49,301 bases of DNA from an uncultured Ignavibacteriota bacterium (GTDB lineage: Bacteria; Bacteroidota; Ignavibacteria; UBA10030; UBA8401): assembly GCA_903958625.1 (NCBI GenBank), contig CAJBTU010000003.1, positions 1 through 49,301 on the forward strand, given 5' to 3'. Below, one piece after another: positions 2,141 to 4,294 of this stretch. Below the pieces are notes generated by a model, which did no database searches, was not told the origin of the DNA, and saw only the letters and a list, made by a program, of their open reading frames with translations. The position numbers were made by a program, and so were the translations under genes. Each line of letters begins with the position of its first letter. Position 1 is the stretch's first letter.

Positions 2141-3055
2141 ATGAGTGATATCATCCTCCGCACTAAAAATCTCGGCAAGCATTATAAGAACCGCTGGGCC
2201 GCGCAAGAGATCGATCTTGAAGTGCACCGGGGCGACGTATTCGGTTTTCTCGGACCGAACGGTGCGGGAAAAAGTACAACGATACGGATGATCCTCTCCC
2301 TTATCACGCCGACGACCGGAACGGTAGAGTTGTTCGGCCACGATCTATTTAAGAAGCGCGAAGCTGCGTTGCAGAATGTCGGCGGCATCGTGGAAAAACC
2401 GGATTTCTACCTTTATCTTTCCGCATACCGCAATATGCAGATCGCCGGTTCGCTCACCCTTGGCAAAACTCCCGACGATAAAAAAATTAACGATACACTC
2501 GGTATTGTCGGCCTCGCCGAACGGTCGCTGGACAAAGTAAAAACATTCTCTCACGGAATGAAGCAGCGTCTCGGCATAGCGCAGGCACTTCTCTGCGATC
2601 CTCAATTGATCATGCTTGACGAACCGACGAACGGTCTTGATCCTCAGGGGATGAAAGAAGTAAGGGAATTGATAACACGGCTGACAACGGAACGGGGTAT
2701 CACCGTTTTTCTCTCCTCGCATCTGCTGAATGAAGTGGAACAGGTGGCAACACGCATGGCGATTATCAACAAAGGAAAAATGATCGTTCAAGGTAAGGTT
2801 GAAGATCTGCTTAAAGCGAACGCGAATAAGGTTCTCTTCAATGTTGAGCCGGTCAAGCGATCGATGGCAGTATTGGAAAAGATCAAAAAAGTATCGGAAA
2901 TAGCGCAGACCGACGAAGGTATCGTTGCGAAGGTCGATGGAAAAATGATCCCTGCTGTGGTTAATGAACTGGTAAAAGCGAAATGCAAGGTCTTTTCGGT
3001 GCAGCCGAAACACAGTTTGGAAGAATATTTTTTGGACGTCACCACCGAGAGTTAA
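2141..3055 (+). CDS. ABC transporter ATP-binding protein (ABC-2 exporter type)
   Basis: A 304-aa ATPase subunit that powers the membrane permease encoded at 3455. The Walker A is GPNGAGKST (residues 38-46), the signature loop is a variant FSHGMKQ (136-142) and the Walker B is LIMLDEP with D160-E161, followed by NGLDPQG. The switch histidine lies in LSSHLL. The C-terminal 90 residues form the extra domain typical of CcmA/NatA/BcrA-like exporters. The family moves drugs, lipids or peptides or acts in gliding and copper systems; the substrate here is unknown. The partner gene should follow directly, but the GIY-YIG element at 3067-3432 now separates the two. Confidence 0.95.
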   Translation: MSDIILRTKNLGKHYKNRWAAQEIDLEVHRGDVFGFLGPNGAGKSTTIRMILSLITPTTGTVELFGHDLFKKREAALQNVGGIVEKPDFYLYLSAYRNMQIAGSLTLGKTPDDKKINDTLGIVGLAERSLDKVKTFSHGMKQRLGIAQALLCDPQLIMLDEPTNGLDPQGMKEVRELITRLTTERGITVFLSSHLLNEVEQVATRMAIINKGKMIVQGKVEDLLKANANKVLFNVEPVKRSMAVLEKIKKVSEIAQTDEGIVAKVDGKMIPAVVNELVKAKCKVFSVQPKHSLEEYFLDVTTES

Positions 3056-3066
3056 GGAGTTGCTGG

Positions 3067-3432
3067 CATTCCGAGCGAAGCCCCGATATTTTTATAGGGG
3101 CGAAGCGAGGAATCTCAACGTTATTTTTTAATGAAGAATAAATCTGGAACTCTTTATGTCGGCATGACTAATGATTTGCGAAAACGTGTTGCTCAACACA
3201 AAGAAATGCTTGTTGAAGGATTTACAAAACGCTATCGAATAACAACGCTGATTTATTTTGAAGAATACGATGATGTTCGATATTGTATTGAACGGGAAAC
3301 ACGAAAGAAAGCTTGGACCAGAAGGAAAAAATTGGATTTGATTGCGACAATGAACCCTTCAATGAAAGAAATAATTATTAATTGATTTTTAAAGATTGAG
3401 ATTCCTCGTCCCATGGAATGGGACTCGGAATG
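3067..3432 (+). mobile_element. GIY-YIG gene bounded by palindromic inverted repeats
   Basis: A 366-bp unit lies between the two subunit genes of one ABC exporter. Its ends match as perfect inverted repeats at two levels. Outer: CATTCCGAG (3067-3075) against CTCGGAATG (3424-3432). Inner: CGAGGAATCTCAA (3106-3118) against TTGAGATTCCTCG (3396-3408). Each end is itself a hairpin. The left has a GCCCC/GGGGC stem between CGAAG words (3076-3105). The right has a perfect 7-bp stem GTCCCAT/ATGGGAC with a 3-nt loop (3409-3425). The only gene inside is the GIY-YIG ORF. No convincing target-site duplication was found. Mobility is inferred from structure and location; no transposase is present. Confidence 0.65.
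3131..3385 (+). CDS. GIY-YIG endonuclease-like protein, N-terminally short
   Basis: An 84-aa protein with the YIG half of the GIY-YIG nuclease fold (GTLYVGMTND), the following helix arginine (DLRKRV), the QHK motif, the acidic YFEEYDD strand and the family's usual tail IERE..RRKKLDLIATMNP. Free-standing relatives usually begin about 8-10 residues earlier with a YYVYI strand that holds the first catalytic tyrosine. Here the reading frame is open upstream only to 3098 and has no ATG, GTG or TTG before 3131. The codons just upstream read RYFL, running into the end of the left repeat arm. The copy is therefore either truncated and possibly inactive, or begins at a non-standard codon. Such proteins act on DNA, but this one's target is unknown. 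Confidence 0.8.
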   Translation: MKNKSGTLYVGMTNDLRKRVAQHKEMLVEGFTKRYRITTLIYFEEYDDVRYCIERETRKKAWTRRKKLDLIATMNPSMKEIIIN

Positions 3433-3454
3433 ACAATTACTCAACATTCTACTT

Positions 3455-4294
3455 ATGCTCAATCTTATCTACTGGGAACTCTTCAAGACCTACGCCAAGT
3501 GGCGGACCTATATCGGCTTTATCGCCGTCGGCGTCCTCATTCCCGTGATCATGTGGATCATGTGGGTGGAAGGGGGAAAGTTCATTCAGCATCAACTGAG
3601 ATCGCTCCAATCTGAATTTTTAATTACCGGAAATCTCTTTAACGGCTGGGTGATCGCGCAATTGATCATGAACGGCCTGTGGGTTCACGTTCCCACGCTG
3701 ATAGCACTTGTTGCCGGCGATCAGCTTTCAGGTGAAGCGACCTCGGGAACATTCAGGCTGACGCTCATCCGTCCGGTTTCCCGCACGCGGATACTGAATG
3801 CAAAATATATCGCCACGCTCATCTACACCGCGTCACTCGTTATTGCCATCGCCTTCACCTCCGTCGGACTGGGGCTATGGATCTTCGGCACCGGCGATCT
3901 TATTGCATTCGATAAGGACGGGATCACCATCCTTCCGGAGTACGACCTGTATATTCGTTTTCTTTTTGCTTATGCGCTTGCTATTTGGTCGATGTTCGTA
4001 GTCGCTTCGCTCGCATTCTTCATCTCATCATTTGTTGAAAATGCCATCGGCCCGATCATTACAACCATGACGGTGATCGTCATCTTCCTCATAATTTCTA
4101 ATCTCCCGGTCGAATCCGTTGAAGGGATCAAACCTTGGCTCTTTACAACGCATATGAATGTATGGCAGCAGGCATTTCGCGATCCGTATGATTGGGAAAA
4201 GATCCGCACTTCGGTGCTTGCGCTCGGGGCAAACAGTCTATTCTTTTGGGCAATAACGCTCTTCATATTCCGACGAAAAGATATTCTATCATAA
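3455..4294 (+). CDS. ABC-2 type transporter permease
   Basis: A 279-aa inner-membrane protein with about six hydrophobic segments (near residues 17-38, 60-80, 110-130, 165-190, 195-218 and 255-275). A conserved cytoplasmic loop, GDQLSGEATSGTFRLTLIRPVSRTRIL (two halves of one segment), is the standard ABC-2 permease coupling region. It is the membrane partner of the ATPase at 2141; the spacing between them is about 400 bp only because the GIY-YIG element sits there. The POT-like transporter starts 13 bp downstream, so the transcript probably continues. Exported substrate unknown. Confidence 0.88.
   Translation: MLNLIYWELFKTYAKWRTYIGFIAVGVLIPVIMWIMWVEGGKFIQHQLRSLQSEFLITGNLFNGWVIAQLIMNGLWVHVPTLIALVAGDQLSGEATSGTFRLTLIRPVSRTRILNAKYIATLIYTASLVIAIAFTSVGLGLWIFGTGDLIAFDKDGITILPEYDLYIRFLFAYALAIWSMFVVASLAFFISSFVENAIGPIITTMTVIVIFLIISNLPVESVEGIKPWLFTTHMNVWQQAFRDPYDWEKIRTSVLALGANSLFFWAITLFIFRRKDILS

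Follow-up and report, generated by a model that had tools for sequence, protein, structure and literature searches.

REPINs probably owe their spread to RAYT transposases, and in REPtrons the enzyme gene lies between two inverted REPs while ORF-less REP pairs are dispersed elsewhere. The Ssn nucleases (Neisseria NTS) are reportedly single-strand-specific GIY-YIG enzymes with many homologues of different specificities. A further group of repeats, the CGTC REPs, is reported from five phyla, Chlorobi and Bacteroidetes among them; no dedicated enzyme has been found for these repeats, which "lack a dedicated transposase" (Di Nocera et al. 2013, PMC3733652). They combine an outer (C)GTC/TGTC tag with AT first stem pairs and an unpaired tail, form dimers in intergenic regions, and are sometimes nested as dimers in larger palindromes (PMC3733652).

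The window analysed here (the whole stretch of DNA, 49,301 nucleotides from an uncultured Ignavibacteriota bacterium) contains two palindromes around a GIY-YIG gene. The unit has the features of CGTC REPs but, unlike those of PMC3733652, its palindromes flank a nuclease gene with a motif that tracks the stem; the match is one of features, as opposed to aligned family letters. The REPtron layout is also shared, including the dispersed ORF-less pairs. Differences are that the enzyme is GIY-YIG rather than HUH/Y1, that the tag reads GTC instead of GTAG and that mobility is here read from sequence; no Y1/HUH transposase lies between the palindromes, and Y1 loci lack such palindromes. As in the Ssn system, a small GIY-YIG protein goes together with a cognate repeated genomic sequence (here at the level of the class). 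Ssn is reported to cleave single-stranded DNA site-specifically, as the present nuclease may. The nearest solved structures by sequence and fold are those of UPF0213/YhbQ-like GIY-YIG proteins (PDB 1zg2 and 1ywl).

Anatomy of the unit

The features of the unit and its host genes are collected in Table 1. The first-pass annotation had placed the unit at positions 3067 to 3432, which is 2 bases short on each side: comparison with relatives extends the ends to a GTC/GAC tag, mutated from GTC to GGC on the left (3065-3067) and intact as GAC on the right (3432-3434). Its description of the ends was otherwise accurate. The outer inverted pair (3057-3075/3424-3442) shows 79% identity around an exact 9-bp core (CATTCCGAG/CTCGGAATG), and the inner pair (3106-3118/3396-3408) is identical at 13 of 13 positions. 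Each end folds separately into a hairpin with its own core (left -25.9 kcal/mol, z -3.5; right -20.1 kcal/mol, z -3.7), and none of 200 shuffles was as stable as either. CATTCCGAGCGAAGC occurs exactly once in the window; when up to 2 mismatches are allowed there are 2 matches, where 0.14 would be expected. Apart from the GGC of the left tag, the ends show all characters of a CGTC-tagged REP dimer: the outer (C/T)GTC tag, the AT stem start, the unpaired tail and the outward pair.

Table 1. Features of the palindrome-nuclease unit and neighbouring genes, in window coordinates.
Feature	Position	Strand	Basis
Whole unit: palindrome, GIY-YIG gene, palindrome, with outward tags	3065..3434	+	ends from comparison with relatives
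Left palindrome, CGTC-type REP; stem ATTCC/GGAAT; core GCGAAGCCCC...GGGGCGAAGC	3065..3116	+	
Right palindrome, inverted relative to the left; stem ATTCC/GGAAT; core TCCC...GGGA	3398..3434	-	
Remnant nuclease frame, conserved Tyr to stop; sole ATG at 3131	3122..3385	+	
Recognition-motif codons K-A-W-T-R-R-K-K, residues covarying with palindrome stem	3308..3331	+	covariation
Upstream host gene: ABC transporter ATPase (ABC_tran)	2141..3055	+	profile match
Downstream host gene: ABC-2 type permease (ABC2_membrane)	3455..4294	+	profile match

The unit occupies the gap between an ABC ATPase gene and its permease gene. These had been called normally adjacent, and in most relatives compared they are, separated by anything from a few bp to about 100 bp. 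The ORF between the ends matches GIY-YIG (PF01541, E 1e-12), again as annotated. Across alignments of GIY-YIG proteins the first Tyr, the YIG-type motif, an Arg and a Glu are conserved; the only ATG of the window ORF falls after the first beta strand. The frame stays open for 11 codons further upstream, through the inner arm to 3098, from which it had been suggested that the left arm may supply the missing first strand of the nuclease. That suggestion is not supported, as no ATG, GTG or TTG is present in this frame between 3098 and 3131 and hence no start precedes the first Tyr. Since the homologue at the equivalent site in relative G010 does have a normal start (MKTYFVYIMTNNSG), the window copy is probably truncated at its 5' end and inactive; activity at this locus today is unlikely. 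The nearest nuclease elsewhere in the same genome (G000) is 33-38% identical, and no close homologue was found in this incomplete assembly of 426 contigs. At most, the window copy could be a substrate for a nuclease encoded elsewhere.

Palindromes and probable recognition motif of small GIY-YIG nucleases

We surveyed two sets of GIY-YIG loci, 90 in relatives and 80 in GTDB species spread over many phyla. All were picked by protein only, and 164 were usable. Under a strict rule (GTC-AT-NNN ... N'N'N'-AT-C/T, tag outward, at most 250 bp from the gene) a palindrome was found in both flanks of 86 loci and in one flank of 51, so that 137 of the 164 have at least one. Fractions are similar for the relatives (44 both, 25 one, n=78) and the GTDB-wide subset (40 both, 26 one, n=77). 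Shuffled flanks gave 0.8% per side and 0/3280 for both sides together. Flanking palindromes were absent from 24 permease-gene controls and, in contrast to the nucleases of this class, from the UPF0213-like homologues of the same genomes (0/7); reverse-reading control patterns numbered 0 in all genomes scanned. At some loci the spelling differs between the two sides. Several nucleases of different dialects may coexist in one genome (G010, G005), and the genes are often decayed by stops and truncations.

Two further arrangements were seen during the survey. Beside nuclease locus L045 (G009:C6, ~306,800-312,500) A-type palindromes repeat at a spacing of ~152 bp. At L003 (1380-1880; G000:C64) a further GIY-YIG gene directly follows an SRP-RNA-like sequence, and another, partial copy of this sequence type comes after it; the arrangement looks like an insertion at an SRP-RNA-like gene that duplicated the end of that gene.

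To relate protein to palindrome, mutual information was calculated for every combination of protein column and stem letter in 137 proteins (effective number 77). The four columns with the highest excess are precisely the x, W/G, x and W/K positions of the motif K-x-[W/G]-x-R-x-[W/K]-K. The resulting code pairs GS..K with ATTGCGA (25/27 units), WN..W with ATTCCCG (24/41), WL..K with ATTCTGA (16/22), WK..W with ATTCCTG (11) and WR..K with ATT[C/T]CGA (9/9), the last group including the window type. Kinship was checked with 68 disjoint nearest protein pairs and 73 tested columns: pairs that differ in the motif columns tend to differ in spelling too (p=6e-7 for column 72 and 1e-5 for column 70), the next column reaching 0.003. 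Linked inheritance alone would be expected to spread the signal over the whole protein, which is not what is seen. Genomes with a matching nuclease also carry the corresponding spelling in greater numbers (p=2e-7 for dialect A, 1e-7 for B, 5e-8 for D and 0.016 for C); for dialect C the association is weak, and the typing of nucleases per genome is incomplete.

In a high-confidence model of the G010 nuclease L039 (pLDDT 94) the four residues map to the turn joining the last two helices and to the first turn of the last one; the nearest folds are the UPF0213, Slx1 and UvrC GIY-YIG domains. Since four residues around a single helix turn covary with the palindrome stem and rank above every other column, the small GIY-YIG nuclease very probably recognises its palindromes. 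The same recognition had been proposed in the first-pass annotation, and the covariation now gives it strong backing.

The ends fold well and directly follow a stop codon, as terminators or mRNA-stability hairpins would, and the nuclease gene might then be adjacent by chance. Such plain intergenic structures are hardly tenable as an explanation and are already contradicted by the controls: shuffles and control genes gave 0 on both sides, scans of the region returned no Rfam family and no terminator pattern, and the stem covaries with the motif.

History of the site and probable mobility of the class

The equivalent gap was sought in 100 relatives. G010, of a different genus, has a like gene and right end in this gap, and the congener G001 has a palindrome pair but no gene. 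The window, G010 and G001 can all be aligned over the right end and from there to the permease start. Another species of the genus (G007) carries a pair of ATTGCGAG spelling in the equivalent gap (L010). Such a pair is absent from the gap in G005, G003, G002, G018, G009, G016, G021 and G012. The simplest reading of these alignments is one old insertion, after which either the gene alone or the complete unit was lost. As the right end is common to G010 (with the ORF) and G001 (without it) in the same gap, the window copy appears old and not recent, and the earlier reading as a mobile element is not supported for it. Repeated insertion into this gap is less simple though conceivable, since G006 has, at a different site, a nuclease with about the same degree of similarity as the G010 one.

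The first-pass annotation had named two outcomes that would speak against a mobile element: ORF and arms present at this site as ancestral sequence, or arms occurring nowhere else. G010 and G001 come close to the former, while the arms are indeed found elsewhere. The comparison of orthologous ABC operons that it proposed did reveal relatives without the pair; no clean empty site from which to define the insertion ends of the window unit was obtained, the gaps of G004, G005, G003 and G002 not being alignable base by base with the window flanks.

For the class as a whole, homology between copies at unrelated sites starts and stops 0-3 bases from the outer tags in L046/L072/L074, L072/L074, L109/L111, L133/L149 and L144/L149; this end test is clear for a minority only, as in many other pairs the alignment ended within the gene or continued into the flanks. 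In addition, G016 has, in another ABC gap, an ATTCCCG-spelling unit that is lacking in G005 and in G021, the flanking genes of G021 being 94-95% identical to those of G016. No target duplication or clean empty site could be defined between G021 and G016, because the two also differ in filler sequence. The comparison with a homing endonuclease element, which inserts into an intact allele that it cuts at a defined site, gave different copies in unrelated gaps and no clean empty site. As homology ends at the outer tags in some pairs, and one neighbour site of 95% identity lacks its copy, the class is likely mobile. To this extent the earlier designation as a mobile element stands for the class, minus the clean empty site and the target duplication. 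Two units of different spelling, L074/L130 (G016) and that of the window (3055-3455), each lie between ABC ATPase and permease genes, possibly by chance and possibly through a preference for gaps that follow a stop codon within operons.

Elsewhere in the genomes, where the first-pass annotation had proposed to look for the arms, ORF-less pairs with the same spelling are present in many copies. G000 contains 8 strict A-type units and relatives up to 25. Most of the ORF-less pairs inspected in G000, including most inspected A-type units, sit in a separate MITE whose terminal inverted repeats are ~24 bp long, so the count of solo palindromes in G000 was rejected as proof of mobility and does not demonstrate spread driven by the nuclease. 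This MITE (ACATCTGAAAAATCTCACATCAAT..., 50 arms genome-wide; L238-L243, L311-L346) carries pairs of several spellings, and its short versions, 65-80 bp long, retain little of the interior. In genus g2 (L266-L278; G016, G021, G008) the CGTC pairs are nested in a different larger repeat, AGTCATGTTACGCAAAAAGATTG...GCGTAACATGA, much as described for CGTC REP dimers (PMC3733652).

The MITE-borne pairs raise the question whether another enzyme, either a Y1/RAYT or a MITE transposase, mobilises the palindromes with the nuclease as a passenger. Y1 transposases are indeed present in 48/60 relatives. Nonetheless, this seems unlikely to us: none of 25 Y1 loci has a palindrome within 350 bp, which also fits the earlier description of an element without a transposase, and a passenger would not be expected to show covariation focused on four neighbouring motif residues.

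A possible nuclease for the CGTC REPs

We consider the window unit, with a probability of roughly 70%, to be an old, decayed copy of a selfish combination of a nuclease and a palindrome pair. An intact nuclease would bind and nick the hairpin form of its own palindromes when the DNA is single-stranded, during replication or DNA uptake. Repair or recombination of the cut ends might then copy the pair, either alone or together with the gene, into further intergenic sites, in a way comparable to the presumed spread of REPINs by RAYT transposases. Cutting of hairpins or single strands is suggested by analogy with the GIY-YIG superfamily and with what is reported for the Ssn nucleases; the copying through repair or recombination is likewise our inference.

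The same anatomy, a nuclease with a cognate repeated palindrome, could also belong to a domesticated, host-serving nuclease resembling the Ssn/NTS pair. The palindromes would then be genomic marks that spread slowly and passively, and the nuclease would modulate DNA uptake or recombination. The flank and covariation evidence for recognition fits this equally well, as does the age of the window insertion. However, the intergenic scatter, the presence and absence of copies at 95% identity, the several dialects per genome and the frequent decay look more like a parasite, and we regard domestication as rather unlikely.

A broader proposal is that the CGTC REP super-family has its missing dedicated enzymes in the GIY-YIG nucleases. 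This would be a second selfish system of the REPIN type, evolved independently, whose nuclease of ~90 residues reads its palindrome by means of a four-residue code at one helix turn and spreads the palindrome pair without a transposase. This we put forward tentatively, at a little short of even odds. The general idea of a site-specific GIY-YIG nuclease with cognate repeats is probably not new, since the Ssn nucleases have reportedly been described before. What may be added here is the residue code, the connection with CGTC REPs and the anatomy of the unit. Our literature search returned nothing combining CGTC, palindromic and GIY-YIG and nothing tying GIY-YIG to REPs or RAYTs; in a 2025 REP survey the word 'endonuclease' is absent and CGTC appears only in a reference.

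For the CGTC REPs, which occur in five phyla without a known enzyme (PMC3733652), the covariation names a candidate enzyme and predicts the residues that set its specificity. What moves or maintains these repeats thereby becomes testable with proteins of ~90 residues. The code predicts, for example, that Neisseria repeats starting with ATTCCCGC go with an enzyme motif K-x-W-N-R-x-W-K. If true, it would also make the sequence specificity of small GIY-YIG nucleases readable from their residues.
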